Shown piece after piece: positions 29,908 through 46,267 of a DNA stretch of 64,000 nucleotides. Numbering within the stretch: the first letter of the stretch is position 1; each line of letters starts with the position of its first letter. This DNA is from Leucobacter viscericola (GTDB taxonomy: Bacteria > Actinomycetota > Actinomycetes > Actinomycetales > Microbacteriaceae), in the NCBI RefSeq assembly GCF_011299575.1, contig NZ_CP049863.1, positions 186,001-250,000 on the forward strand, given 5' to 3'. The notes under the pieces are model-generated. The model was given only the letters and a program-made list of their open reading frames with translations, searched no databases and was not told the origin of the DNA. Made by a program: the position numbers and the translations under genes.

Positions 29908-32900
29908 ATGTTCTCTTCAAGTAAGGTTCTCAAGAGGGGCGTTGGGGCTGGCGTCCTATCTTCGCTCCTGTTGAGCCTGTTGCTGTCTCCACCCGCAATT
30001 GCGGACGAGCCTGTTTCGCCCGAAGTCGCAACTGATAGTGCGAGTCAATCCTCAAACGACTCAGGCGCACAGGACACACCGGCGAAGGATGCTGCTGACG
30101 CTGCACCGCTAGCGGCGGCAGCGGGCGACGCTAGCATTACTATGACAGTCGCGCAGAAAACTGGCACGGCCCCGTTTACCCCGGGAAGTACCGCTGCTGG
30201 TGACGACCCGGGTGATGATGATCCGGGAAATATCGTGCGAACCAACGACACGGTGACCTATACGGTGGGTGTTCGTTATCACGGTGAGGATCAGACAAAC
30301 AGCCAACTGAAGTTCAGTCTTCCACGAGGTCAGACGCTTGCAGTCTTGCCGCCATTCTGTCTCGCAGGCTCGTCGGTTTCCCCCAGTAGCGACTCAATCC
30401 CTGCCCCGGCGGTGCCTCTCACTTCTTCCTCATGGGAATCGCTGCCGGTACAGCAGGTGACCTGCAACCTTGGAAAGGGCGAGGTAGCGAGTGCGCTTGA
30501 CTACAGCTTTGTGTCCAAGGTGCGCCCGGAGGTGCCAAACGGCACTGTCATGGATGACGTGGTGTTTACTGCCGCATCAGATCAAGCAACGGACCCGGTA
30601 GCGACTCCCCCTCTGTCGCAGACGGTTTCAGCGGCCCCGCAGTTCGACGTATCAAAGCGTGGTGAGGCGACTGCTGCGAACCAGGGACCTTTGGGTCAGT
30701 CGACCGGGGCGTGCCCAAGCGACAGCACCAAGGCATGTGTCTCAGTGTTCTATCCAATGACGATTACTGCACCCCAGGGCGGGAAGGGAGTAACGCCACT
30801 TGGCAATCCCATTCGGTTCCAGGATGACCTGTCTCCGGCGTCGTTCTTCGGGGACACCGTTTGGTCTCAGATGGTCGCAAAAGCAGGTTCAGAGAGCGCA
30901 GCCCGCGCTGCTTACGCTCCAATGCTCGAAGTGTGCACTCCGATCGTGGCCAACAGCTCGTTGAAGTTGTCAGTCCCTTACAGTAAAGCTGGCCAGGGTT
31001 CGTACGCGAACGCAGCGAATTCCGTTCGAGATTCCGGCTCGGTGGATTGCACCCAGGATGCCCCTGGAGATCCCGCTCAGATTACAATCACCAATGCGGA
31101 CACGAGCGCCTACACGTTCCCGACGACGAGCGGGAGCGGAACGCAACTGAGTGCGGATCGCGCCTACCTGTTCAGCTACGAGATTCGAGTGGCAGTGCCC
31201 CAGGCGGCAGTGCTTGAGTTTGGTGGTAAGAGCTCGCCCTACACCATTGCAACGCACAACGAATTCAACAAATTTGAGATGACCGGCATTGATGGTCAGG
31301 CAAACATCGGCGAGAAGGTCGAAAACAACGATCGCGACGCGATGATTCGCATTCAAAACGGCTTCGGCTTGAATAAGTTCTTCGCGGGCATTTGGGGAAC
31401 CCCGGGCAATACGCCTGCGTATGACTTTTCTGATTCGTACCTCTACGAGGGCCTCCCCGGATCCGCAAAAAAGCAAGATGGCAACACGGTTGTGATGCCG
31501 GGTCAGTCCGTGCAGAGTGTTCTCGCAGTATCAGCAACCGGCCCCGCTGGCTCGGGAACTGAATACTCCAAGACCAGTGTTTCCTGTGACGTTTGGGATC
31601 CAAGCCGCCTGGCACTTGCTGCCAAACAGGATTGGCATGGATACGACCAGACACTGTACCCGAGCAATGGCAAGCCAGTTTATGTATCGGGATACCTGGA
31701 GCAGTACACGTCGCGCGGTGCCGCGGCCGTGGGAAGCGCCACTTCAGGAGTAAAAAATCTGAAGATTGAGTACAGCTCAGGTCCTTCAGGGGCCGGAGAC
31801 GGTTCTGACTGCTCTCAGGGAACCTGGTTTGCCGACCCCAGTGATGTTCCCGGTGCGAAGGTGAACACTGATGCAGACGGACGAACCACCTGGGAAGGCG
31901 TTAACCGTGTGCGCGTCACCTACAACACCGAGTGGCCGGAAGGAACTACCTACGGTGCCACCTACCTCTACATGTCCATTGGGCAGGTGGTGCTGGATAA
32001 CGGTAGCAGCGACGAAATCGGAAACTGGGCGTCTCAGATTCGGGCAGATGGAATCAAGACCGCGAAAGAAGCGATTGCCGACCCAGACCACGTTTCAGTG
32101 CCATCGGAGTATGATCCTGCAACGCACAAGGGAAGCACCGGCGATAGGTTGATTCCGGGCAATGCGATCGTTCGGGTCGCTAAGTATGTGAAGAACCCCG
32201 AAACCGGAGAGTTCACTGACACTGCGGTGCCGCTCTATAAAGCTGGGAGCTCGGTGGAGTATCGCCTGAACCCCTCGCTTACCGCTGCGGTTCCGGCATC
32301 AGATGTTCAGTACCCCGTCACGATGGAAGACTGCTTGCCGCTGCATCAGGTGTTTAAGAAATCTGAACAGGCTGGCGCCGCAATTACTCCTGACCTGGTT
32401 CAGATGGGCTCTCCAGCGGACGCTGGGTTGAAGTGTGCTGATGACCGCCAGTATGTGCACTGGGATCTGGGCATGCGCACTGTGGGTGCAGCGATTGACC
32501 CAGTGATCGTGTCAACAGATATCTTGTCGACAGCCAGGAACGGCACCTACGCAAATGACGTTGTTGTTGCTTCGCCGGCAGACACAGGGCCAGTCTCCTC
32601 CAGGTCAGACTCTGTGCAGATCCAGATCCTCTCACCGACGGGAATCAAGATCGCGAAGGGTGTCGATAAACCGATCATTGAGGTGAACCCCGAGGGAGTC
32701 ACCAAGCCGCGCACGATGACCTGGTCTGTGCAGTTTGCAAACCTGGACTCAAGCTCCACGGTGTCGAATGTGGACGCGATTGACGTGCTCCCCGCGAACG
32801 GTGAGAACGGGAACAAGTTCAATGGTCAGCTTCGGTTCGACTCGGCAACTCCGGCTGCTGGCGACAACATCAACGTTCTCTACACCAAACAGGCTGTCGC

Positions 32901-34161
32901 AGATCTAGATTCGGATCCTTCGGCCTCGAGCAACGAAAGTGCCGGCGCTACGGTCTGGTGTGATGCAGTTGGCGGCAAGGTAGTTTCCGGTTCTGGAAGC
33001 GCTGCCGATTGCCCGCAGAACAAGAGTGAGGTCACGGGCCTGCGGTTCCTGCGGTCCGGGGAATTTACTCCTGACCAAGAGTTCCAGGTGGATATTGCCA
33101 TGACGCCAATCAACAATGCGGTTGGCGACCACTACCGCAACATCACCTCTGGCCGCGCTGATGGCGTGAGCCAGGGAGTTGGCCCCGCCGCGCGTACGGT
33201 CGATGTCATTGGCTCAACCGTCGGTGACTACGTCTGGGAGGACACGAATAAAGATGGACTCCAGACCGCGGGTGAACCTGGCGTATCGGACTTTCCGGTG
33301 CGGCTGATTGGCACTGATGTTGATGGCAATGCTGTCGACCTTCAGACGAAGACAGACAGCAACGGTCACTACCTGTTCGAAGGCCTCGCCTCTGGTGAAT
33401 ACCGCGTGGTGTTTGATCCGAACGCTCTCAGCTCGAACACGACGTTCACCGAACAGAGTGTTGGAGACGATACTTCGGTGGACTCGGATGCTGACAAGGT
33501 AACCGGTGAGACGAAGAGCTTTACTCTTGGAAGTGATGCTGAGGATCTCACCCTAGACGCCGGTCTTGTGATCGATCGAAACGTGAACGTTGTGCTCGAC
33601 AAGAAGCTTCTGGGCACACCAGAGCTGGACAAGAACCACAACACGACACTGGCCTACGCGCTCGACGTAACAAACGAGGGCACGGCCGACACCACCTACG
33701 ACCTGAGCGACAAGCTCAAGTTCGGTGGCGACATCACGATTAACAGCGTTTCCGTGAAGCGCGACGGTGCAAGCCAGGCTCACGTAAACTCCGACTTCGA
33801 TGGCCAGGGTAACCAAAACATCGTGAGTGACGTCGCCCTGTCGGGCGGAGAAACCCACACCTACCTGGTGACGGTGAAGGCGACCGCCGCAACCAAAATC
33901 ACCGCGAGTGAGCGAGATTGCGTCGTGGAAAAGGGTGAAGCAGGAAGCGGTTTCCTGAACACCGCAGAGCTTGTTGCGAATGGGAAAACCATCTCTGACA
34001 AGGCCTGTGGCGAAGTTCCTCCGATCCCTGAGGATTCGCAGGCCGGGACGCTGGCAATTACCGGTGCTGCCGGGACCTGGACGCTCATGCTCGGTGGGCT
34101 CGCGCTCGCAGTGCTAGGAGCCGGTGCGTTTGTGGTCCGTCGTCGGAACCGCAGAGCCTGA
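29908..34161 (+). CDS. large isopeptide/SdrD-B-domain adhesin with LAITG sorting signal
   Basis: A 1417-residue wall protein. A signal peptide (cleavage near IADE, residue 34) is followed by a disordered Ser/Ala/Asp-rich part, then large DUF11/isopeptide-type domains (residues about 90-1100). An SdrD B-like domain (GDYVWEDTNKDGLQTAGEPG, from about 1106 to 1215) and a further DUF11-like module precede the sorting signal LAITG at 1382-1386, a membrane helix and RRRNRRA. Such proteins act as adhesins or pilus-like components; several domains likely carry internal isopeptide bonds. The ATG at 29908 follows AGAAGGA. No sortase or pilin partner is next to it. Confidence 0.85.
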   Translation: MFSSSKVLKRGVGAGVLSSLLLSLLLSPPAIADEPVSPEVATDSASQSSNDSGAQDTPAKDAADAAPLAAAAGDASITMTVAQKTGTAPFTPGSTAAGDDPGDDDPGNIVRTNDTVTYTVGVRYHGEDQTNSQLKFSLPRGQTLAVLPPFCLAGSSVSPSSDSIPAPAVPLTSSSWESLPVQQVTCNLGKGEVASALDYSFVSKVRPEVPNGTVMDDVVFTAASDQATDPVATPPLSQTVSAAPQFDVSKRGEATAANQGPLGQSTGACPSDSTKACVSVFYPMTITAPQGGKGVTPLGNPIRFQDDLSPASFFGDTVWSQMVAKAGSESAARAAYAPMLEVCTPIVANSSLKLSVPYSKAGQGSYANAANSVRDSGSVDCTQDAPGDPAQITITNADTSAYTFPTTSGSGTQLSADRAYLFSYEIRVAVPQAAVLEFGGKSSPYTIATHNEFNKFEMTGIDGQANIGEKVENNDRDAMIRIQNGFGLNKFFAGIWGTPGNTPAYDFSDSYLYEGLPGSAKKQDGNTVVMPGQSVQSVLAVSATGPAGSGTEYSKTSVSCDVWDPSRLALAAKQDWHGYDQTLYPSNGKPVYVSGYLEQYTSRGAAAVGSATSGVKNLKIEYSSGPSGAGDGSDCSQGTWFADPSDVPGAKVNTDADGRTTWEGVNRVRVTYNTEWPEGTTYGATYLYMSIGQVVLDNGSSDEIGNWASQIRADGIKTAKEAIADPDHVSVPSEYDPATHKGSTGDRLIPGNAIVRVAKYVKNPETGEFTDTAVPLYKAGSSVEYRLNPSLTAAVPASDVQYPVTMEDCLPLHQVFKKSEQAGAAITPDLVQMGSPADAGLKCADDRQYVHWDLGMRTVGAAIDPVIVSTDILSTARNGTYANDVVVASPADTGPVSSRSDSVQIQILSPTGIKIAKGVDKPIIEVNPEGVTKPRTMTWSVQFANLDSSSTVSNVDAIDVLPANGENGNKFNGQLRFDSATPAAGDNINVLYTKQAVADLDSDPSASSNESAGATVWCDAVGGKVVSGSGSAADCPQNKSEVTGLRFLRSGEFTPDQEFQVDIAMTPINNAVGDHYRNITSGRADGVSQGVGPAARTVDVIGSTVGDYVWEDTNKDGLQTAGEPGVSDFPVRLIGTDVDGNAVDLQTKTDSNGHYLFEGLASGEYRVVFDPNALSSNTTFTEQSVGDDTSVDSDADKVTGETKSFTLGSDAEDLTLDAGLVIDRNVNVVLDKKLLGTPELDKNHNTTLAYALDVTNEGTADTTYDLSDKLKFGGDITINSVSVKRDGASQAHVNSDFDGQGNQNIVSDVALSGGETHTYLVTVKATAATKITASERDCVVEKGEAGSGFLNTAELVANGKTISDKACGEVPPIPEDSQAGTLAITGAAGTWTLMLGGLALAVLGAGAFVVRRRNRRA

Positions 34162-36456: not shown

Positions 36457-37395
36457 TTACTTCTTCACGTAGACGATCCCACCCTTAACATCGGGCCGAA
36501 TCTCGGTTCCGATGTTGCGTGCGAGCAGGTCGTCGAGCCGATCAAGCGGCCCGATGAGGGCCCGCCCGCCCGCTCGCGCAACCCGAATCGCGGCGTCAAC
36601 CTTGGGCTGCATCGAGCCCTCGGCAAACTTCAGCTCGGAGATCGCATCGGCCGAGGCGGTGAGGATGTCACGCTGCTCGGGTGTTCCCCAGTTTTCGCTC
36701 ACGTACTCACCATCGGTCAGCATGATGAGAGTGTCAGCGCTGAGGTCCGCCGCCAGCGCGGCACTTGCGAGGTCCTTATCGACAACCGCCTGCACACCCG
36801 CCTGCAGCGCGCCCGTCTGGTCGACACGCACTGGTACACCACCACCACCGGCGCAAACGACGAGGGTGCCACCCTTGAGTAGTGATTTGATCAGCGGTGC
36901 CTGCTGAATAGAAATCGGCTGTGGAGACGGCACGACCCGGCGAAACGCTTTGCCGTCCTTCGCGATTGTCCAGCGGTATTCGGCCGCGGCCTCTGCTGCA
37001 TCCTCGGCCGAATAGGTCGGCCCGATGAGCTTAGTTGGGTGCTCAAACGCGGGATCATTCTCGTCAACAACCGTGGTCGTGATGATTGCGGCAACCTCGC
37101 GCGCGCCACCGAGCGCGTTCGAGAGTTCCTGCTGCACCACGTAACCGATCATGCCCTGGGTTTCGGCGCCGAGGATGTCGAGCGGGTATGCCGCCACATC
37201 CTGGTAAGCGAGATTCTGCAACGCGAGCAGACCTACCTGGGGGCCGTTGCCGTGTGTAATGACGAGTTCATTCTTGTCAGCTAGCCCGGCCAGTGCCTGG
37301 CAGGTAGACCGCACGTTTGCGCGGAGGCGTTCCGCGGTCATTGGCTCGCCGCGTCTTGCGAGGGCGTTTCCGCCCAGAGCAACAACAATGCGCAT
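36457..37395 (-). CDS. carbamate kinase, catabolic (AllK/YbcF-like)
   Basis: Transfers the phosphate of carbamoyl phosphate to ADP, giving ATP and carbamate that falls apart to ammonia and CO2. The 312-residue protein has the family start RIVVALGGNALARRG, THGNGPQVG, the ETQGMIGYVVQQEL helix, VVCAGGGGVPV, and the active-site KDLASAALA and LTDGEYVSENWG segments. AAGGAC lies before the ATG. As the last gene of an FdrA-type operon it most likely draws on carbamoyl phosphate made by that complex rather than on arginine breakdown; no arginine deiminase is present. Confidence 0.92.
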   Translation of the reverse strand: MRIVVALGGNALARRGEPMTAERLRANVRSTCQALAGLADKNELVITHGNGPQVGLLALQNLAYQDVAAYPLDILGAETQGMIGYVVQQELSNALGGAREVAAIITTTVVDENDPAFEHPTKLIGPTYSAEDAAEAAAEYRWTIAKDGKAFRRVVPSPQPISIQQAPLIKSLLKGGTLVVCAGGGGVPVRVDQTGALQAGVQAVVDKDLASAALAADLSADTLIMLTDGEYVSENWGTPEQRDILTASADAISELKFAEGSMQPKVDAAIRVARAGGRALIGPLDRLDDLLARNIGTEIRPDVKGGIVYVKK

Positions 37396-37441
37396 AGTTC
37401 TTTTGTCCTTCTATTGTCTGGAGAGTTTTGGTGGAGCGCGC

Positions 37442-38695
37442 TTATGCTCGTTGGCGCCGAATAAGCCCAAGTGCCCCGTAGAGCAGAGCACTGAACAGCA
37501 GTGAGTCGAGCGAGGGCACCGAGGTGATCGTGAGGATGCCATTGGCGCACAGGAAACCGAGGATGCTGCCGGCGAACCAGATTGCGTATGTGTCAAGTCG
37601 CACCGCAGGCTGTGATTTGAGCACTGACTCGTCGTAACCGCGTCGGCGGTAGAGGGCGAAGTCGACAATGTAGATACCCGCGACGGGAGGTGCTGCGACG
37701 CCTAGGAAGAGCAAGAAGCTCGGAAGCCACGCGCCCACGTCCATGCTGCCAATAACAGCCACTCCAATGCCCAGGGCTACAGTCAGCATCCACTTCTTGC
37801 GCACAATGTTGAACAGGTTCGCAAAGGCGAGTGTGCCCTGAAACATGTTGCCTGCGTTAGCCGTGACCGAGGCGATCACCATCAGAATGATCGCGGGAAC
37901 AACCGAGGCGATGATCCCCATCGCGTCAATCAACGATCCCTTGCCCGTCAGCACGCTCGGGATTGCCCCCGCAACATAGAGCAGCGGATATGCAACCAAG
38001 AAGGTGAGAATCGCACCGACGATCGCGTGCTTGCGGCTACGAGTGAAGCTTCCGAAGTCGGCCGCGGTGACCACCAGCACGATAGCCGTTCCGACAACCG
38101 TTGACACGGCAACACCCCACGGCATGGATCCGCTCTGCGCGTGTGCGCTGAGCCCCGCCGAGAGCGACTGGAACACCAGGAATCCAAGGATCAAGACGAT
38201 AACCGGAACAGCCCACTGCGCAACCTTGCCGATCACCTCAAAACCGAATGCGGTTGATGCGACAAAGATGATGCAGCCGATCGTTACCAGAATCGGAAGG
38301 GGAACACTGATACCAAAGGAAGTGCTCAGCAGGTTTGAGACGGCGAGTCCAAACCCGTTGGCCGTCACGGCGCTCCAACCGAAGAGGCTCACGGCGAGCA
38401 GCACGGTTACGGCTTTTGCACCGAGTCGCCCAAACGGAAACCGAACGATGTCATACGTAGGCTGCCGGGCGTGCTGACCAATTGAGAGTGTGAGCGAAGC
38501 GAGCAGGGTGAGGATCACGGCACCGACAAGGATGGCCGCGATCATGCTTCCCATGGGCAATCCCGTGCCGAGGGTTGGAGCGGAGAGCACAACCGGCGTC
38601 ACCAAGATGCCGAGAAGGATCAAGGCCAGGCGCCATCCCGGTGCACCAGAGGCAGCGCTACCGCGGGTGGTGTCTTCGGTTTCAGCTTTGACCAT
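37442..38695 (-). CDS. NCS1-family nucleobase/ureide permease (CodB-like)
   Basis: A 417-residue integral membrane protein with about 12 hydrophobic helices; segments such as VSLFGWSAVTANGFGLAV, FGFEVIGKVAQW and ADFGSFTRSRKHAIVG are typical of the cytosine/allantoin permease family. Substrates of NCS1 carriers include cytosine, uracil, allantoin and hydantoins. In this operon it probably imports the ureido compound. It starts 3 nt after the upstream gene and ends 46 nt before carbamate kinase. Confidence 0.88.
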   Translation of the reverse strand: MVKAETEDTTRGSAASGAPGWRLALILLGILVTPVVLSAPTLGTGLPMGSMIAAILVGAVILTLLASLTLSIGQHARQPTYDIVRFPFGRLGAKAVTVLLAVSLFGWSAVTANGFGLAVSNLLSTSFGISVPLPILVTIGCIIFVASTAFGFEVIGKVAQWAVPVIVLILGFLVFQSLSAGLSAHAQSGSMPWGVAVSTVVGTAIVLVVTAADFGSFTRSRKHAIVGAILTFLVAYPLLYVAGAIPSVLTGKGSLIDAMGIIASVVPAIILMVIASVTANAGNMFQGTLAFANLFNIVRKKWMLTVALGIGVAVIGSMDVGAWLPSFLLFLGVAAPPVAGIYIVDFALYRRRGYDESVLKSQPAVRLDTYAIWFAGSILGFLCANGILTITSVPSLDSLLFSALLYGALGLIRRQRA

Positions 38696-38698
38696 GGG

Positions 38699-39097
38699 TC
38701 AGCCCTCCGTATCTGTCATCGCAGCAGTGTAGGCACGCCATCCACCAAATTCGGTGATATCGCGCTTTCCCTCCACCAGGAATGGCTCGCCGAGCACACC
38801 GAGCACCGTTGACCCATCGGCAAGTTGAACTTTTCCGATCGAGAGACCTGCGGGCTCTTGGCCGAGAACCGTGGCGATGCCATCGTTCGGCACATCCCAC
38901 ACCTCGAGGGCGACCGCGGTGCCGCTGTTGTCTGTCACGCGGATCATTGCTGGGTGAACATCGTCGATGCTCCACAGCCGGTAGCATGCCTCAGTCGTGG
39001 TTTCAGTGACGAACGTCGCCCCGACCGCAGTGAGATTGGGGTTGAGCACAAGGCCGCGCATGAGGGTGCCGTTGACGGCAAGACGTGTGGTGTTCAT
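38699..39097 (-). CDS. stand-alone protein like the allophanate hydrolase C-terminal domain
   Basis: A 132-residue protein resembling the small C-terminal domain of allophanate hydrolase (AtzF-type), with ACYRLWSI, AVALEVWDVP, LSIGKVQLADGS, the LGEPFLVEG segment and the closing DITEFGGWRAY. In AtzF that domain removes CO2 from the first-step product. The classical catalytic histidine lies in an LNHQL-type segment; here the matching stretch seems to be LNPNL, so activity may differ or be lost (from memory, unaligned). It lies between the DUF1116 gene and the permease. Confidence 0.65.
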   Translation of the reverse strand: MNTTRLAVNGTLMRGLVLNPNLTAVGATFVTETTTEACYRLWSIDDVHPAMIRVTDNSGTAVALEVWDVPNDGIATVLGQEPAGLSIGKVQLADGSTVLGVLGEPFLVEGKRDITEFGGWRAYTAAMTDTEG

Positions 39098-39109
39098 AGT
39101 TTCTGATCC

Positions 39110-40522
39110 TTAATCGTTAGTGAGATTTTCAGCGAGGGCGGCGACCGCCTCCGCAAAACATGCCTGAGGTGCCGAGGTGATGCCCGCACCGATCTGACCG
39201 ACACCGGCCTTACGGTGGGCGATGCCGCTGTTAATCACCGGCAGTGTGCCGGAGTCGAGCACGGCGAGTGCGTCAATGCCTGCCGCACTTCCCGCGAAGT
39301 CCAGGGCGGGAAGGCTGAAGACAGGGTTCGTTCCGAGTGTGATCGTGCGCATGCGTCGGCTGTGTGCCGTTGCATCCGCGGGCGTTCCCCCGACAAACTG
39401 CACAATCGCAGGGGCGGCCGCCATCGCGAACCCGCCGACACCGGCAGTCTCGGTGATGGCGCTGTCCCCCAGGTCTGGCGCGGCATCATCGATGCCGTAA
39501 CCGGGAAAGAACAGGCCGTCGATGGGGTTGGCGGGTGCCTGGAACCACTGGTCCCCCGTGCCCGAGAGGCGGATCCCAAAGTTGATTCCGTTTCGAGCCA
39601 TCACGGTGACCATTGAGCTGCCCGGCACCCCTGTCGCGGCGTCGAGCATGGCCTTGCTGGCCGCCATCGATAGGTTCAAGAAGAAGTGGTCATTGCCGGC
39701 GATGAAGTCGATCGAACGCTGTACCTGCCCAGTGGGGAGGTCGGTTGCGAGCAAAGCGGGCACGAGCTGCTTGAACAGCAGCCCGGTCGCGGCGGCGTTG
39801 CGATTGTGAATCTCGTCGCCCATGAGCAACGCCTGGGCCATAATTGGCTTCAGGTCGATCCCGCCGATGTGACGCACCGCTCCCCGCATTGCGGGGAACA
39901 ACTCGTCGCGCATCCAACGCAAACGCTCGATTACCTCGGGGCCATTTGCGCCAAACCGAAGCACCTTGCCGAGGCCCTCGTTGAAGTTGCTGTAGGCCCG
40001 GTTGCCAGACGTGACGTTCTCGACCTGCCACAGCGGGCTTGAAGGGCTGATGACGCCGGCCATCGGCCCCACCGCACCGTAGTGGTGGCAGGGTGCAAAA
40101 CGGATCTCGCCGCTGTCTGCGAGTGCCAGCGCCTCTTCTTCGGATGCAGCCCATCCCTCGTAGAGGATGGCGCCAGTGATTGCGCCGCGCATGGGTCCGC
40201 ACATATCGGCAAACGCGATCGGCGGGCCAGCGTGCAAGATAAGCCGCGTGGTGGCCATGTCGTCGATCACGTCGCTTGCAAGAGCGACGTCGACCAAACG
40301 AGGCTGAGCGCTCAGGTAGCGGTCGAAAGCGATTTTGTTCGCTTCGGTGACACGATCATCACCCATCAGCTTGGCGAGCTGCCAGCCGGCTGCAGCATCT
40401 CCATTTGCCGGTGGGTGCCAATTGAGCTGGTGGGCGGTTGCTCCGGCGCTGATGATGTCGTCAGCAAAAGAAGCTAGGCCGAGGTTCAGCACCTCGGGCT
40501 CTCGAGAAAGTAGGTGCATCAT
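39110..40522 (-). CDS. DUF1116 protein, oxamate carbamoyltransferase subunit AllG/YlbE-like
   Basis: A 470-residue soluble protein of the YlbE/DUF1116 family, with GATAHQLNWHPPANGD, ADMCGPMRGAITGAILYEGWA and MARNGINFGIRLSGTGDQWF. In Escherichia coli this family, with FdrA and YlbF, forms the oxamate carbamoyltransferase that phosphorolyses oxalurate to oxamate and carbamoyl phosphate. The ATG at 40522 overlaps the fdrA stop in an ATGA context, indicating coupled translation and a fixed subunit ratio. Confidence 0.85.
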   Translation of the reverse strand: MMHLLSREPEVLNLGLASFADDIISAGATAHQLNWHPPANGDAAAGWQLAKLMGDDRVTEANKIAFDRYLSAQPRLVDVALASDVIDDMATTRLILHAGPPIAFADMCGPMRGAITGAILYEGWAASEEEALALADSGEIRFAPCHHYGAVGPMAGVISPSSPLWQVENVTSGNRAYSNFNEGLGKVLRFGANGPEVIERLRWMRDELFPAMRGAVRHIGGIDLKPIMAQALLMGDEIHNRNAAATGLLFKQLVPALLATDLPTGQVQRSIDFIAGNDHFFLNLSMAASKAMLDAATGVPGSSMVTVMARNGINFGIRLSGTGDQWFQAPANPIDGLFFPGYGIDDAAPDLGDSAITETAGVGGFAMAAAPAIVQFVGGTPADATAHSRRMRTITLGTNPVFSLPALDFAGSAAGIDALAVLDSGTLPVINSGIAHRKAGVGQIGAGITSAPQACFAEAVAALAENLTND

Positions 40523-42084
40523 GAGTTTGCTCCTGACGGGGTTTGTGAGTTGAGCGTTGCGAGTGCCCAGTGCGCGGCTTCGGCGTTGCTATCGGCGACG
40601 TATACGCCCGCGTCGCGCAGGCGCTCGACAACGGCTGAGCGGTCTTGAGAATCGAGCTCAGTACCGCACACGTGTGCAATGAGTGAAACGGTGCGGCCCG
40701 CGGCAGCGGCAGCGCGACGGCCGGTTTCCAGCACGTCAATCAGCGACGAAACCGGGTCTGCTGAAGCGCCGTAACCAATGACCACATCAAACACCAACAC
40801 CGCGGTTTCGGGATCGCCGAGCTCGGCCGTAATCCGCTCATTGCGCAGGGTTGGATCGATCATTGGGTGTGGGCGACCCTGAGTGAACACGTCATCACCC
40901 ATGTCAAGAATGGTGTGACCCTCGCTGTGCCAGAGGTCAGTAGCCATCTTGTTGCCGGCAACCGGGGTGTTTGACGCCGCAACGACGCCCCCCTGCTGGC
41001 AGAGGGACTGCGTTTCATAGCAGAATGTGCCACCGGAGAAGACTCCGCGCAGGTACTTCTGCGAGGGGGTACGCGTGAGAGCTTCTGCCCTCAGCGCGAC
41101 TGGCAGGGAAGACTCTGCAATCTGCACCGGATCCTTCCCCGCCGCAACGGCCACAGCGAGATCGGCGGCACCCGCGAGAGTGTCGGCCATCACAATGCCG
41201 GAGGTATCGATACCCGCGTCCTTCGGGCCGACAAACACGGCGACAACGGGGGTGCTTAAGCTGCGTGCCATATCAAGAACCCGAGCGGCAACGGAGGGTG
41301 CCGGTGGTTTTGAGACCAGTACGATCACGTCGGTCGCTTCGTCTTCCTCTAGCCCGCGCATGGCGCGCAGCATGGAGATTGCACCGACCTCGGCTGATAG
41401 GTCGTGGCCGCCGGTGCCGAGTGCGTGCGAGACGCCAGCCCCGAGGTGGTGGATCCGGGTTGCAACTTCCTGGGTTCCGGTTCCCGATGCCCCTACGATG
41501 CCGATTGAACCGCGGCGCACTGCATTCGCGAATCCGAGCGGTACTCCACCCACAATCGCCGTTCCGCAGTCAGGCCCCATGACCAGCAGACCGCGGTCAT
41601 CCGCGTAGCGCTTCAGGGCAATCTCCTGGTCAACAGGAACGTTGTCGCTGAACATCATCACGTCAAGGCCAAGCTCAAGCGCTTTGAGTGCTTCGGCGGC
41701 AGCATATTGCCCCGGTACCGAGATCAGCGCGAGTGTGGAATCGCCGTAGCGGGATGCAGCAGCTTTCAGGCTCACTGGGGGTGCTTCCTCGGCGGCACCC
41801 TCTTCTGATCCGCTGCGCTCCTTGGTGAGGAGCTCTTCAGCCAGGTCGAGCGCTTGGGTGCGTGCTTCTTCTGCGCCGCGGACCACAACAAGCAGGTCGT
41901 TGGGGCCCGCCGAGCTGTCATCCGCGAGTCCTACTCGGCGTAGGTTGGCTCGGTTTGCTTCGGTGGCCATGACAACCGAAGCCTCCTCGATGCCCTCTAA
42001 CTTGGTAACGGCCGCGGTGATCGCCATAAGGGCGACTGAGTCCTTGTATAAGTTGGGATACACACGGTGTTCGGAAACCGTCAT
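40519..42084 (-). CDS. fdrA: FdrA family protein, oxamate carbamoyltransferase subunit
   Basis: A 521-residue protein with two acyl-CoA-synthetase-type Rossmann regions: MGPDCGTAIVGGVPLGFAN, then IGIVGASGTGTQEVATRI with GTGGHDLS, and later VSKPPAPSVAARVLD and DVVIGYGASADP. This layout is that of FdrA, which resembles succinyl-CoA synthetase subunits and is thought to carry the phosphoryl-transfer site. The length is close to other FdrA proteins. It starts by ATGA overlap with the DUF2877 gene and ends by ATGA overlap with the DUF1116 gene. Confidence 0.9.
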   Translation of the reverse strand: MTVSEHRVYPNLYKDSVALMAITAAVTKLEGIEEASVVMATEANRANLRRVGLADDSSAGPNDLLVVVRGAEEARTQALDLAEELLTKERSGSEEGAAEEAPPVSLKAAASRYGDSTLALISVPGQYAAAEALKALELGLDVMMFSDNVPVDQEIALKRYADDRGLLVMGPDCGTAIVGGVPLGFANAVRRGSIGIVGASGTGTQEVATRIHHLGAGVSHALGTGGHDLSAEVGAISMLRAMRGLEEDEATDVIVLVSKPPAPSVAARVLDMARSLSTPVVAVFVGPKDAGIDTSGIVMADTLAGAADLAVAVAAGKDPVQIAESSLPVALRAEALTRTPSQKYLRGVFSGGTFCYETQSLCQQGGVVAASNTPVAGNKMATDLWHSEGHTILDMGDDVFTQGRPHPMIDPTLRNERITAELGDPETAVLVFDVVIGYGASADPVSSLIDVLETGRRAAAAAGRTVSLIAHVCGTELDSQDRSAVVERLRDAGVYVADSNAEAAHWALATLNSQTPSGANS

Positions 42085-42998
42085 TGTGCTTTCTCCTTTG
42101 TTGAAACGTTTGATTCGTCAGCGGCCAGCACAGAGAGGCCAAGCACGATTCCAGCGATCGCGTCTGCCCCCGAAGTGGCGCCGACAGCGAGCACGTGCTG
42201 AATGCAAGTGCTTTGCAGATCCACCAGGTCGGGCCGGGTGAGTGCGTCGAGCAGTTCGGTGAGTGGTTGGCTGAACTTTCCCTCTGTCGCAAGCTGCAAG
42301 TAGTGGCGACTGACATCGGTCGTGGCTTCGCCTCGCGTCGCAATGACCGCGGCCACTTCGTTGGCAACGTCGCGAGCGTACGTACCACCGCTTCTCGCGA
42401 GTGTGGCCAGCAGGCCAACCAGCAGATCGTCCCCCGAAGGAGTCAGACCTGGCCCCAGACCGATGAGGGCCCCCACCGCGGTGGCCAGCTCGTCGCTCGT
42501 TGCCGAGCAGGTCGCGTTTTGCGCGAGAATCTTGCGCAGGGCGTCGACCGCGGCGCACAGATCCGGTCGATTTCCGCCGCCTACCGGGTGCTCGTGCACG
42601 ACCCTGCGAAGCTGAACCGTGGTAGCGGTGTTCAGCGTCGCAAACTGTAGCGCGTGATGCGGGCGCCATACCTCCGCGCCAGATATATCGAGGGTGTAGG
42701 TGCTCTCCCCCGATCCGCCAATGCGGATCAGGCCGTCGGCCAACCAAACTGGTTGGCCTGGAGCGACCGAGGGCTGCCAGCGGCGACCAGCATGCCCGGC
42801 TATTCGAATCGATGTTGGGGAGTGTAGGTTGGCGCTGTCTTGCAGCGTCAGGAGCGTTCCGGCAACTGCCAGATTGCAGGAGTGTGCAAAGACGCTGTGC
42901 ACGACTCCGGTGAACGTGCCCTCTGGTACCGCGTGGCCGCGAGAGAGGGCACGTTCGTGGCGCTTTGCCTCCTTGTTGAGAAGGGGCATCGCCGACAT
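42081..42998 (-). CDS. DUF2877 protein, AllH/YlbF-like
   Basis: A 305-residue protein of the DUF2877 group: SVFAHSCNLAV, a long beta-rich middle, ALIGLGPGLTPSGDDLLVGLL (the family hallmark), and a C-terminal helical part. E. coli YlbF/AllH of this family is the third component of oxamate carbamoyltransferase. It starts 7 nt after the hydrolase gene and overlaps fdrA by 4 nt. Confidence 0.85.
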   Translation of the reverse strand: MSAMPLLNKEAKRHERALSRGHAVPEGTFTGVVHSVFAHSCNLAVAGTLLTLQDSANLHSPTSIRIAGHAGRRWQPSVAPGQPVWLADGLIRIGGSGESTYTLDISGAEVWRPHHALQFATLNTATTVQLRRVVHEHPVGGGNRPDLCAAVDALRKILAQNATCSATSDELATAVGALIGLGPGLTPSGDDLLVGLLATLARSGGTYARDVANEVAAVIATRGEATTDVSRHYLQLATEGKFSQPLTELLDALTRPDLVDLQSTCIQHVLAVGATSGADAIAGIVLGLSVLAADESNVSTKEKAQ

Positions 42999-43005
42999 GG
43001 TCGTG

Positions 43006-43674
43006 CTAGCTGTTCAGAACGCGAAGAGCCGCAGCCGAGTCCGAGACCCAACCGAAGATCGCACCCTGTGCTTTGATCATCTTCAGGCCGACCTCTTGGA
43101 ACTCGGGAAAGTACGAGCCGGTGCAGTCAGAGAGCACCACGCACTCGTAGCCGCGGTCGTTTGCCTCGCGCACCGTCGTGTGCACGCAAACCTCAAGTGT
43201 CACTCCGCAAACAATAAGCGTTTTGATGCCCTTGTTCTGCAGAATCAAGTCAAGATCCGTGGCGTAAAAGGAGCCCTTGCCAGGCTTGTCGATGATCGGC
43301 TCACCCTCGATCGGGGCAAGCTCGGGCACAATGTCATGGCCCTTCTCGCCGCGAACAAGGACCCTGCCCATTGGGCCGTCTTCGCCAATGAACGTGGTGC
43401 CGCCACGCGTCAGTTTTGCCGGTGGGCAATCCGCGAGATCGGGGCGGTGGCCCTCCCTCGTGTGGATCACAAACATGCCTGCCTTGCGGGCTGCTTCAAG
43501 CACTCGACGCGTGGGCTCAATTGTTTCCTGAAGCGGTGAAGTGTCGTTGCCCAGCATCTCACCAAATCCAGCCGGCTCAACGAAGTCGCGCTGCATGTCG
43601 ATGATGAGCAAGGCCGTTGAATCTGTATCAAGTTCAAGATCGAACGGTTCTGCAGTAATTCGGGTATAGACCAT
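43006..43674 (-). CDS. isochorismatase-superfamily cysteine hydrolase, biuret amidohydrolase-like
   Basis: A 222-residue amidase. The triad is Asp26 (LLIIDMQRDF), Lys129 (IIDKPGKGSF) and Cys162 (GVTLEVCVHTT). The blocks HTREGHRPDLAD, a RGEKGHDIVPELAPIEGE stretch and REANDRGYECVVLSDCTGS are very close to what I recall of biuret hydrolase (BiuH), which turns biuret into allophanate and ammonia. Related enzymes act on ureidoacrylate, N-carbamoylsarcosine or oxamate, so the substrate is a prediction. AAGGAG precedes the ATG; it is the first gene of the operon, divergent from a LysR regulator. Confidence 0.88.
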   Translation of the reverse strand: MVYTRITAEPFDLELDTDSTALLIIDMQRDFVEPAGFGEMLGNDTSPLQETIEPTRRVLEAARKAGMFVIHTREGHRPDLADCPPAKLTRGGTTFIGEDGPMGRVLVRGEKGHDIVPELAPIEGEPIIDKPGKGSFYATDLDLILQNKGIKTLIVCGVTLEVCVHTTVREANDRGYECVVLSDCTGSYFPEFQEVGLKMIKAQGAIFGWVSDSAAALRVLNS

Positions 43675-43853: not shown

Positions 43854-44723
43854 ATGGAACTGCGTCAACTCGAGTACTTCATCGCTGTCGCTACCCACGG
43901 CAGCTTTACACGGGCAGCACGAGAGGTCCACACCGTACAATCGACGCTCAGTTCTGCGATCAATCGCCTCGAACAAGACGTCGGAACTGCGCTTTTCGAA
44001 CGAACAACGCGGCGCGTTGCGCTCACAGTGGCGGGGCAGGCACTGCTGCCACTTGCGATTCGTATGATTGGTGATGCCCACGCGGCGCGGGGTGCCGTTG
44101 CTGCTGTTATGGGCCATCGCAAGGGGCAGGTAAATATCGGAACGATCCAGGCCCTTACCTGGATTGACCTTCCGGCCGCGCTCGGTCGCTTTCACACTGA
44201 TCACCCGGGGGTCAGCATTACTGTTCGGGAGGCGCCCGTCGATGAACTCACCGACAGCCTGCTGGCTGGCGATATCGACCTTGCCGTTGTTGCCCGAGAC
44301 CACTATCCGAAACCTATGGGCTTGGTTACTCTCAGCTCGCACGACGAAGAGCTGGTTGTTGTTGTGTCGAAGCATCATCCGCTTGCGGATCGAAACGAGG
44401 TCGCCATTGCGGAACTCGCTGGCGTTCCTTTCGTGAACTTCGAGGCCGGTGCCGGCCTTGAGGCCGTTGTTTCGCGGTATTGCGCTAATGCGCGCATTGA
44501 ACGGACGATCGTTGTCCATACGGCCCAGCTTCAGCTACTCATCGAGCTTGTCGCACGAGGTCTCGGTGCGGCAATCATCCCAGCGAGCCTTGCGCAGCAC
44601 CCTGAAATTGCCTCCATCCCCTTTGTAGCCCCGCGCCCCCACCGCACTGTTGCACTGCTCGCTCGAGAACAGCAGCCGAGCAACCCCGCTGCCGCTGCGC
44701 TCCTGCAATATTTAGGCGTCTGA
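43854..44723 (+). CDS. LysR-family transcriptional regulator
   Basis: A 289-residue regulator with an N-terminal winged helix (MELRQLEYFIAVATHGSFTRAA, then the HTVQSTLSSAINRLEQDVGT recognition helix) and a periplasmic-binding-like effector domain (from about residue 90, starting KGQVNIGTIQAL). It is divergent from the ureido operon and probably activates it in response to the substrate or an intermediate. It converges with the glycine-rich surface protein gene. Confidence 0.9.
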   Translation: MELRQLEYFIAVATHGSFTRAAREVHTVQSTLSSAINRLEQDVGTALFERTTRRVALTVAGQALLPLAIRMIGDAHAARGAVAAVMGHRKGQVNIGTIQALTWIDLPAALGRFHTDHPGVSITVREAPVDELTDSLLAGDIDLAVVARDHYPKPMGLVTLSSHDEELVVVVSKHHPLADRNEVAIAELAGVPFVNFEAGAGLEAVVSRYCANARIERTIVVHTAQLQLLIELVARGLGAAIIPASLAQHPEIASIPFVAPRPHRTVALLAREQQPSNPAAAALLQYLGV

Positions 44724-44733
44724 GAGACCGCAC

Positions 44734-46095
44734 TTAGCTGCGCCTTCGTGAAGTGCGTCGCAAAAGAGTGGTCAATAATCCGGTGAGTAGCAGCGTCACC
44801 GCGGTCAACACCGCGGGAGTAAGGGCAGCAGAACCGGTCTCCGGGAGCTCTGGTTGTTTGATCCCTGCTTGCCCCGGCGTAGGCGTAGGCGTGGGCGTCG
44901 GCGTGGGCGTGCCTGGCACCGCGACCGCGTCAAACACAACGGAAGTGTCGCCGGCTGATTGACCATCAACCGTTGCACTCACCCGGGCGGTTCCATCCGA
45001 GGTTCCACTGAGAGTTGCTGTGTAGGTGCCGTCGCTGTGGTCGATAACGCCACTGAGGGTGCCAAAGTCTGAGGTAAACGCAACGGAGCGCCCGCCCCGC
45101 TGGTCAGGTACGCCGCCCTCGGAAACGCTCAGCGTGATTGTTGAGACGCCGGTTTTTCCCTCGTCAAACGTGACTTGGCCTGGGGCTGCCGAGAGCTGGC
45201 CGGTAAGGGCCGCCCACTGCAGACGAACCGAACCATTCGTTTCAGTCGCTGCTCCACCACCCGTCGTCAGAGCCCCGCCCGTCACCGACGAAGCGAGAAA
45301 CCCGGATCCACCACCCCCGCCTCCAGCGTCGGGCGCGAGCCCTCCGCTGCCGCCTCCGTAGTACCCGCCACCGCCACCACCGCTCACAACGCTGATGTTA
45401 GTAACGGCATCTCCGCCTCGGAACGCGGTACCTGGATTACCGCCCTGACCTGCTGCCCCACCGCCTGTTTGGGTTCCCGGTTGGCCTCGAAGCGCGGGGT
45501 CTGGGTCGAGGTTTTGGTGAGTTCCGGCGGTGCCGACTTCGCCGCCGCCGTCTCCACCGGACGGAATCTGCGGAACCGCCGTGACTGAAACGCTACCGCC
45601 GCCACCCCCGGCGATGAGTAATGGTGTCGGTGCGGGTCCAAGTGGGTCACTTGACCACACTCCGGAAAGCCCACCACCGGCCCCTGAAGAGTAGCCAGCG
45701 GTCGAGTCTGTTGCGCCGTTGCCGCCACCCCCGGTGCCATCAGATCCTCCAACCGTCACCCAGAGGGTACTGCCCGGAGTAAGACCCGTGATGATCCCCG
45801 AGGCTGCGCCGCCGATCCCACCATCACCGCGAAGTCCACCGCTCACGGGATCCGTGCCCATGCCTCCCCCGGCCCCCGCGGCAGAACTCAGAAGCCTGGT
45901 CACCCCGGCAGGAACAACGAAGGTCTCTGCTTCTGCCGGAGTGGAGAACTCCACGCATCCGACATAGCCGGGATCAGGGACGCAGCCGACCGGTGCGGCT
46001 ATGGCCGCCGAGCTCACACCGAGTGTTGCCGCGCCACCAAGCAACAGTGACACGGTCAATAAACTCACCCGACCTGCCGGTTCAGAAACCCTCAT
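44734..46095 (-). CDS. glycine-rich secreted wall protein with LPETG sorting signal
   Basis: A 453-residue exported protein. The ATG at 46095 has GGAG six bases upstream and is preferred over the upstream MEL start. After the signal peptide (cleavage near AIAA) come a Cys-containing VGCVPDPGYVGCVEF stretch, a glycine-rich domain (residues about 65-290, GGGGG runs), then an Ig-like/invasin-type domain (AAPGQVTFDEGKTG onward) and a TPTPTPTPTPTP linker. The end has LPETG at residues 417-421, a hydrophobic helix and RRTSRRRS. This motif is the classic sortase form, unlike the LAxTG motifs of the other wall proteins here. Confidence 0.82.
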   Translation of the reverse strand: MRVSEPAGRVSLLTVSLLLGGAATLGVSSAAIAAPVGCVPDPGYVGCVEFSTPAEAETFVVPAGVTRLLSSAAGAGGGMGTDPVSGGLRGDGGIGGAASGIITGLTPGSTLWVTVGGSDGTGGGGNGATDSTAGYSSGAGGGLSGVWSSDPLGPAPTPLLIAGGGGGSVSVTAVPQIPSGGDGGGEVGTAGTHQNLDPDPALRGQPGTQTGGGAAGQGGNPGTAFRGGDAVTNISVVSGGGGGGYYGGGSGGLAPDAGGGGGGSGFLASSVTGGALTTGGGAATETNGSVRLQWAALTGQLSAAPGQVTFDEGKTGVSTITLSVSEGGVPDQRGGRSVAFTSDFGTLSGVIDHSDGTYTATLSGTSDGTARVSATVDGQSAGDTSVVFDAVAVPGTPTPTPTPTPTPGQAGIKQPELPETGSAALTPAVLTAVTLLLTGLLTTLLRRTSRRRS

Positions 46096-46267
46096 GCCCA
46101 ACTCCATCGTCTCGTTGCAGCCTGTCTCACGCACCAGCGTGTTGCAGCGCCTGAAAAGCACGATCAGTATCCCGCATTGAAGCCCAAATTTCTACGCATG
46201 GACTGCCCCACCGAATTTTGCTAAGAACCCGCGTTCTTCAAGATATGTTGCCGGGACCGACGAGGCC

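Follow-up and report, generated by a model that had tools for sequence, protein, structure and literature searches.

Why should a hydrolase of the triuret/biuret type be encoded in one operon with a carbamate kinase and all three subunit families of oxamate carbamoyltransferase? The question is raised by a stretch of 64,000 nucleotides from Leucobacter viscericola (contig NZ_CP049863.1, positions 186,001 to 250,000 of the forward strand; termed ‘the window’ here, from genome G000, a single contig of 3.70 Mb), in which seven packed minus-strand open reading frames (ORFs) were confirmed between 43674 and 36457. Their order is hydrolase, AllH, AllF, AllG, AH_C protein, NCS1 permease and carbamate kinase. 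The operon is a variant of the gene set for AllF, AllG, AllH (AllFGH) and carbamate kinase that is joined to the triuret/biuret pathway, and it is both real and widespread. The answer that we favour, at slightly better than even confidence, is that it is catabolic: a urea oligomer would be taken up, hydrolysed to an N-carboxy ureide and phosphorolysed by AllFGH, with the kinase conserving the energy as ATP. The genes concerned, together with a divergent regulator gene, are as follows.

43006..43674, minus strand: cysteine hydrolase of the TrtA/BiuH clade (isochorismatase-like), 222 amino acids; PF00857, PDB matches, residues and tree
42081..42998, minus strand: AllH (DUF2877) subunit; PF11392, E 3.7e-27
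40519..42084, minus strand: AllF (FdrA) subunit, succinyl-CoA-synthetase-alpha-like; NF004760, 491.4 bits against a cut-off of 433; PDB 3dmy
39110..40522, minus strand: AllG (DUF1116) subunit; PF06545, E 4.9e-95; PDB 3clq
38699..39097, minus strand: free AH_C protein, homologue of c4763 (5c5z); PF21986, E 2.7e-41; 5c5z, E 2.7e-44
37442..38695, minus strand: NCS1/CodB-like permease; PF02133, E 4e-11; NF008241, 123.9 bits, under the cut-off of 326
36457..37395, minus strand: carbamate kinase; NF009008, 411.8 bits, over the cut-off of 361
43854..44723, plus strand: divergent LysR-type regulator; PF03466 and PF00126; best NCBIfam model CynR, 173 bits, under the cut-off of 277

An earlier sequence-only reading of this DNA had proposed the same seven genes in a minus-strand operon, with FdrA, AllG, AllH and a carbamate kinase as a set, and the ORFs and family matches bear this out. 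It had also counted four junctions of 7 nucleotides or less among the first five genes. In operon order the junctions measure 7, −4, −4, 12, 3 and 46 nucleotides, so that three are as described (7, −4 and −4), the fourth is 12 nucleotides and the fifth (3 nucleotides) again lies within 7. The kinase falls narrowly short of the model TIGR00746 (356.7 against 358.25).

The hydrolase is predicted to cleave the terminal amide of triuret and/or biuret. Its nearest solved relatives by sequence are the TrtA structures 6xix (264.6 bits) and 6xj4 (260 bits), followed by 6xjm (253.9 bits) and the Rhizobium BiuH chains (233–238 bits). Triuret and biuret hydrolases have been distinguished by residues that in TrtA are F35, N41, E160, Y187, I205 and A134 (PMC7948467; for this and all papers cited below, statements refer to the part of the paper covered). 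In Rhizobium BiuH the same six positions hold Y, Y, D, T, V and S, whereas the window hydrolase has F, N, E, Y and I at TrtA positions 35, 41, 160, 187 and 205, which is the TrtA set and not the BiuH set. With Ser at A134 it matches five of the six TrtA residues, and the change of A134 to Ser in TrtA was found not to be deleterious (PMC7948467). The catalytic Asp, Lys and Cys are present. In the tree the enzyme falls in a TrtA-type clade (support 97/93) with TrtA-type proteins of Rhizobium and Agrobacterium, separate from the BiuH clade (99/99); the proven triuret hydrolase of Herbaspirillum was compared by sequence match only. The five TrtA-type residues are shared by all 20 AllG-linked enzymes in the residue table, of which L099 deviates at the substrate-binding positions E72 and Q202, and by 120/120 of the database homologues listed; L007 and L008 stand outside this table, but are included in the AllG tree and the locus comparison described below. 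The earlier description of a biuret-hydrolase-like amidase is thus right as to family (isochorismatase/BiuH-like), but BiuH proper was rejected, given the TrtA-type residues and a score of 279.5 bits to the NCBIfam BiuH equivalog NF050097, under its cut-off of 370. Among the 15 hydrolases found at E ≤ 1e-45 in a sample of Actinomycetota, eight carry the TrtA-type set and seven BiuH-like sets, and AllG adjoins six of the former against none of the latter (Fisher p = 0.006); four of these six have AllF too, and G100 and G121 are without it.

The next three genes place all three oxamate carbamoyltransferase subunit families side by side (PF11392, NF004760 over its cut-off, and PF06545). In E. coli, AllFGH is reported to act as oxamate carbamoyltransferase in both directions (oxamate + carbamoyl phosphate <-> oxalurate + phosphate), and activity requires all three genes, allF, allG and allH (PMC11326118). 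The K-12 system of AllFGH with the carbamate kinase AllK (PMC11326118) is alike in its three subunit families and kinase, and the same carbamoyl transfer to phosphate and formation of ATP would be predicted for the window. It differs in that the window has the hydrolase, AH_C protein and NCS1 permease where K-12 has allantoin genes (the part of PMC7439467 covered deals with K-12-type allantoin genes only), and also in the AllG chain itself. When 83 AllG rows were placed in a tree, 19 of them, from Actinomycetota and Pseudomonadota, formed one clade with support of 100/100, every one of them beside the hydrolase. The K-12 oxalurate AllG (YlbE) and the YahG-type rows fall elsewhere, the YlbE clade and the operon clade being separate (99/98 and 100/100); the program gave a long-branch warning, and the order of the large clades is weakly supported. 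Furthermore, E. coli E69 holds three AllG copies, one of the operon type and two others. Since the operon AllG lies outside the K-12 oxalurate and YahG clades and coexists with two further copies in E69, a different substrate is to be expected. A segment of about 50 residues at the C-terminus of K-12 AllF is found instead at the start of AllG in the window, in E. coli CFT073 and in YahG, which suggests that AllF and AllG touch there. For AllH no convincing PDB relative was found by sequence.

Other arrangements of these genes were also seen. Two further hydrolase–AllG associations, L047 and L087 with L089, lie outside the 19-row clade; L087 and L089 carry a divergent AllG beside a TrtA-type hydrolase, with no AllF match to reference proteins and no kinase among the ORFs scanned. 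The third TrtA-type hydrolase of genome G721 (L201, G721:C18) adjoins an AllH gene, and neither AllF nor AllG was matched in that stretch. K-12 itself has another AllH/AllF/AllG/kinase set in yahE-yahF-yahG-yahI-yahJ, which differs in being paired with the amidohydrolase YahJ, and a further AllF/AllG pair, of the YahF–YahG type, is encoded in the window genome (L005, G000:C1:3360000-3379999), together with a carbamate kinase, AllH-like genes and an AllW-like permease.

The fifth gene had been read as an allophanate-hydrolase-C-terminus-like protein. The family stands (PF21986); by its motifs, the operon AH_C is a subfamily of its own, found elsewhere fused to a kinase or hydrolase. Both free and kinase-fused operon forms have the motifs VNGTLMRG (INGTLMRG in L096 and L099), HP[AG]M and EPxGL. 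The window protein has VNGTLMRG and EPAGL instead of the AtzF motifs, the three AtzF C-domains aligned having VVGAHL and PAPL in their place. Among its 120 best database homologues, NGTLMRG occurs in 117 and both EPxGL and HP[AG]M in all 120. AH_C is fused to the carbamate kinase C-terminus in L006-L009 (mycobacteria), L046, L096 and L099 (the last two both in G721), and to the hydrolase N-terminus in L100 (G655), where the protein has VNGTLMRG but EPPHL; a Pfam scan confirmed the fusions of L006, L099 and L100. The C-domain of AtzF decarboxylates N-carboxycarbamate, and enzymes of the GGCT fold use a glutamate. We infer that AH_C is a decarboxylase of N-carboxy compounds, a role compatible with both kinds of fusion. 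The E. coli homologue c4763 (5c5z) has been linked to urea use (via PMC7558591). A free AH_C-like protein was also seen at L140:11436-11816, with an amidase and a hydrolase of the BiuH type nearby and no AllFGH.

What AllFGH might stand in for was approached by comparing 48 loci with a TrtA-type hydrolase (that of L147 being basal), 21 with AllF and AllG and 27 without AllF, neighbours being counted within 8 kb. A carbamate kinase is present at 21/21 of the AllF–AllG loci and at 0/27 of those without AllF. The reverse holds for an AtzF-type amidase (>150 bits), found at 0/21 and 7/27 respectively (L089, L149, L136, L137, L182, L195 and L199; Fisher p = 0.014), although these statistics are soft, because near-duplicates (three of E. 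coli, four of named mycobacteria) stand among the 21 loci, and some of the 27 were chosen as references. This comparison lends support to the idea of the sequence-only reading that AllFGH and kinase stand in place of the amidase of allophanate hydrolase. The known TrtA-BiuH-AtzF pathway (PMC7948467) is alike in its TrtA-type hydrolase, residues included, and in that AH_C belongs to the family of the AtzF C-domain; the window operon differs in that neither BiuH nor an AtzF amidase accompanies its hydrolase, and AllFGH with a kinase is found instead.

Both kinds of locus also share a transporter family of about 530 residues, found beside TrtA-type or related hydrolases in L100 and L147 (with AllF and AllG) and in L087, L089, L136, L137 and 14 of the 20 loci L182-L201 (without AllF); it adjoins an amidase in L089, L136, L137, L182 and L199. 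Four members were scanned and gave no Pfam match, and one member, in Peptoclostridium, is annotated as a xanthine permease. It is likely to be a biuret/triuret importer, and its presence in both settings would therefore mean that the same import and first step precede either the amidase or AllFGH with the kinase. For one allophanate-hydrolase model the L136 amidase exceeds the cut-off, and for another it falls narrowly short; the L137 amidase behaves likewise, and the common intermediate would therefore most simply be allophanate. In G298, G100, G782 and G689, each with an AtzF neighbour, just one hydrolase was detected among the candidates scored (at most seven per genome, E ≤ 1e-45), which suggests that in these genomes the TrtA-type enzyme is itself the source of allophanate, with biuret as its substrate.

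A further clue lies in what the operon genomes have for the end of such a pathway. Urease was matched in 8 of 13 operon genomes, and not in G000, Vibrio G396, E. coli G397, Edwardsiella G398 or G658. An allophanate hydrolase over the curated cut-off occurs in two of the 13 (G655 and G658) and a partial one in G649 (453 of 511 bits); the other ten have only the operon AH_C or general amidases of no more than 209 bits to the allophanate-hydrolase model. Outside the operon, AH_C occurs in G655, G658 and G649 and in a frame of 168 amino acids in G361. In G396, G397 and G398 the operon AH_C alone matches that model, and in G000 there are also general amidases of up to 179 bits. Thus in these four genomes neither urease nor allophanate hydrolase was found by these searches; for the window genome, an allophanate hydrolase encoded elsewhere was rejected (best amidase 179 bits against a cut-off of 511), and so was urease as the end enzyme of the operon, for want of a match in G000. 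For the last step in the four, no candidate other than AllFGH with the kinase was found, although enzymes of another kind may serve there.

From the genes and their families, residues, conservation, fusions and module swapping, we infer the following reactions. The permease would import a short urea oligomer, biuret and/or triuret, and the hydrolase would convert it by biuret + H2O -> allophanate + NH3, or triuret + H2O -> carboxybiuret + NH3. AllFGH would then use phosphate to split off the other terminal carbamoyl group, replacing simple hydrolysis; for allophanate the reaction would be allophanate + phosphate -> carbamoyl phosphate + carbamate. The kinase would transfer the phosphate (carbamoyl phosphate + ADP -> ATP + carbamate), and the carbamate would fall to NH3 and CO2. 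AH_C may accelerate the loss of CO2 from an unstable N-carboxy compound, either carboxybiuret (giving biuret) or carbamate, and so either keep the intermediates moving or pull the kinase towards ATP; carboxybiuret and allophanate are known to decay spontaneously, to biuret and urea (PMC6219798). Of the confidence given to this scheme, the larger part rests on allophanate as the AllFGH substrate, a tentative choice that is held overall at distinctly less than even confidence, and the smaller part on carboxybiuret, alone or with allophanate, which is improbable overall. Carboxybiuret could be used directly by AllFGH, since it has carboxylate and carbamoyl ends as in oxalurate.

A number of observations weigh against the proposed scheme. 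The clues from residues and neighbours disagree, the former pointing to triuret and the latter (AtzF) to biuret, and a route from biuret to allophanate is at odds with residues taken strictly as a sign of triuret. Unlike oxalurate, allophanate has no CO between its carboxylate and its ureido group, and it would have to be recognised differently. The module swap is not strict: L089 has AllG and AtzF side by side, and the AllF–AllG locus L099 has, some 3 kb away from its hydrolase, a general amidase (G721:C16:87660-88877) that scores 209 bits with the AtzF model. AH_C is found within 8 kb at 19 of the 21 AllF–AllG loci, and L047 and L147 are without it; L147 moreover has an AllG nearest to YahG and a hydrolase with F, N, H, F and I at the five positions, which is the set of the Peptoclostridium enzyme. 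The AllH profile finds AllH at 14 of the 21 loci and, in the stretches fetched, not at the other seven (L006-L009, L045, L046 and L100), where AllH may be dispensable, encoded elsewhere or diverged. Finally, although the hydrolase is TrtA-type by residues and tree, that type is not linked to AllFGH everywhere: among 68 hydrolase places in Pseudomonadota, 26 have at least 62% identity and are all TrtA-type, yet six of these 26 adjoin AllF and AllG (of the 42 with lower identity, four lie inside the fetched stretches).

These points leave room for other readings, among which continued action of AllFGH on oxalurate or another ureido acid is unlikely, but to be taken seriously. The hydrolase would then supply the acid from its amide, or belong to a separate biuret/triuret pathway. 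AllF, AllG and AllH all match oxamate carbamoyltransferase families, and a biuH-allFGHK neighbourhood in nitrifiers has been read as two pathways (PMC12625717): allFGHK is accompanied by biuH in ammonia-oxidising archaea and by trtA-biuH-atzF in comammox bacteria. These loci resemble the window operon in their isochorismatase-like hydrolase and AllFGH–AllK, and differ in that the part of that paper covered does not mention a free AH_C. An oxalurate function sits poorly with the separate AllG clade, with E69, where the operon AllG occurs besides two others, and with the fusions that tie AH_C to kinase and hydrolase. Neither does the neighbourhood favour it, since no allantoin enzyme of a K-12 panel was best-scoring above 40 bits near the window operon or same-clade loci; the sole panel match was an IclR-type regulator (AllR, 75 bits), which lies some 7 kb away from the operon in CFT073.

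Somewhat less probable still is a route from triuret to urea, in which AH_C would turn the carboxybiuret made from triuret into biuret, AllFGH would phosphorolyse biuret to carbamoyl phosphate and urea, and the urea would be discarded. It would make good sense of the five triuret-type residues and of the AH_C–hydrolase fusion of L100, which would channel unstable carboxybiuret; that carboxybiuret loses CO2 to give biuret is already established (PMC7948467), and export of urea is possible in urease-free hosts. Neutral biuret, however, resembles oxalurate less than the N-carboxy ureides do, the kinase–AH_C fusion is left unexplained, and the exchange with AtzF-type amidases suggests allophanate. 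Very improbable, in our view, is a Rut-like pyrimidine route, in which the hydrolase would act on ureidoacrylate as an amidohydrolase and release carbamate. It is in print for GR29 of E. coli BEN2908 (PMC12928451), a region listed with hydrolase, FdrA, AllG, kinase and permease and read as a pyrimidine/nitrogen module, with pyrimidine-derived nitrogen suggested. The permease is indeed CodB-like and the hydrolase a distant homologue of RutB (111.6 bits against a cut-off of 378), but a RutB function was rejected, with 32% identity and none of five substrate-side residues in common with K-12 RutB; there is no rut gene among the 39 annotated features in 40 kb around the CFT073 operon, and carbamate from a RutB reaction would need no AllFGH.

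The association of these genes is thus partly in print already (PMC12625717, PMC12928451), whilst the phosphorolytic mechanism was not found in the literature covered: in open-licence papers, represented mostly by titles and the openings of abstracts, no proposal was found that AllFGH phosphorolyses allophanate, carboxybiuret or biuret. The energy-conserving idea of the sequence-only reading is plausible and has gained comparative support, and so stands in part. To our knowledge, allophanate, biuret and triuret are broken down only by hydrolysis, and we know of no source of an allophanate or carboxybiuret phosphorylase activity. The preferred scheme can be widened to a claim that we hold at a little below even confidence, namely that AllF–AllG–AllH form a general ureide phosphorolase family, within which the operon clade acts as phosphorylase of allophanate (or carboxybiuret), yielding one ATP per biuret and up to two per triuret, from an operon present in about 28% of complete E. 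coli genomes on chromosomes and plasmids. If true, the phosphorolytic step would be an added enzyme activity, and AllFGH a versatile module rather than a single-purpose allantoin enzyme. Anaerobes such as Peptoclostridium would be predicted to gain energy from urea oligomers, and for E. coli, triuret could come from oxidised uric acid (urine, bird droppings, inflamed tissue).

How far the gene set extends was seen first of all in E. coli CFT073, where homologues of all seven genes and of the LysR gene lie in one cluster, the c4763 operon, which differs in having the kinase before AH_C. Identity to the CFT073 proteins is 71% for the hydrolase, 69% for AllG, 61% for AH_C, 53% for the permease, 52% for AllF, 41% for the kinase and 29% for AllH. 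Because of this conservation a chance neighbourhood was rejected, the set recurring across phyla (Actinomycetota, Pseudomonadota and, with Peptoclostridium, Bacillota). A megablast search with the 6.1-kb CFT073 stretch from AH_C to the hydrolase gave hits in 1547 of the 5426 complete E. coli genomes, and in 1542 these cover at least 80% of its length; the permease and LysR genes lie outside this query. To the gene set so found the scheme, if true, would give a function. The places number 1489 on chromosomes and 127 on plasmids; Nissle 1917 is included, and pACN001-B is a plasmid example with permease and LysR too. The operon is therefore not unique to the window, and its hydrolase-to-AH_C stretch is common in E. 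coli. All seven families also occur in Edwardsiella, Vibrio, a Photobacterium plasmid, G649 and G658. The Bacillota anaerobe Peptoclostridium acidaminophilum has the hydrolase, two permeases, AllH, AllF, AllG and kinase, without AH_C.

Within the genus of the window the picture is different. Operon-type AllG was found in 1 of 54 genomes sampled, the window genome itself, so that the operon appears to be a sporadic and probably acquired trait here; five other genomes have a more distant AllG (50–51% identity), four of these being near in score to the second copy of the window genome and one a partial match. In the wider samples AllG was detected at E ≤ 1e-20 in 49 of 396 Actinomycetota and 14 of 398 Pseudomonadota genomes. 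A scan of named genomes with narrow patterns gave eight loci. Fifty AllG stretches were fetched, of which 15 span less than 19 kb and nine less than 12 kb, so that the context of the short ones is partial, and locus L114 is a repeat of L010.

Around the operon itself, the start codons of the hydrolase and the divergent LysR gene are 179 nucleotides apart, and the LysR gene (43854-44723) is the probable regulator of the operon. The NCS1/CodB-like permease is its predicted substrate importer. A promoter and terminator scan gave a result near chance, and the sequence AAGGAG stands 7 nucleotides upstream of the hydrolase start. Long proteins flank the region at 29908-34161 and 44734-46161 of the window, and their translations, judged by eye, have a secreted or surface-anchored look.

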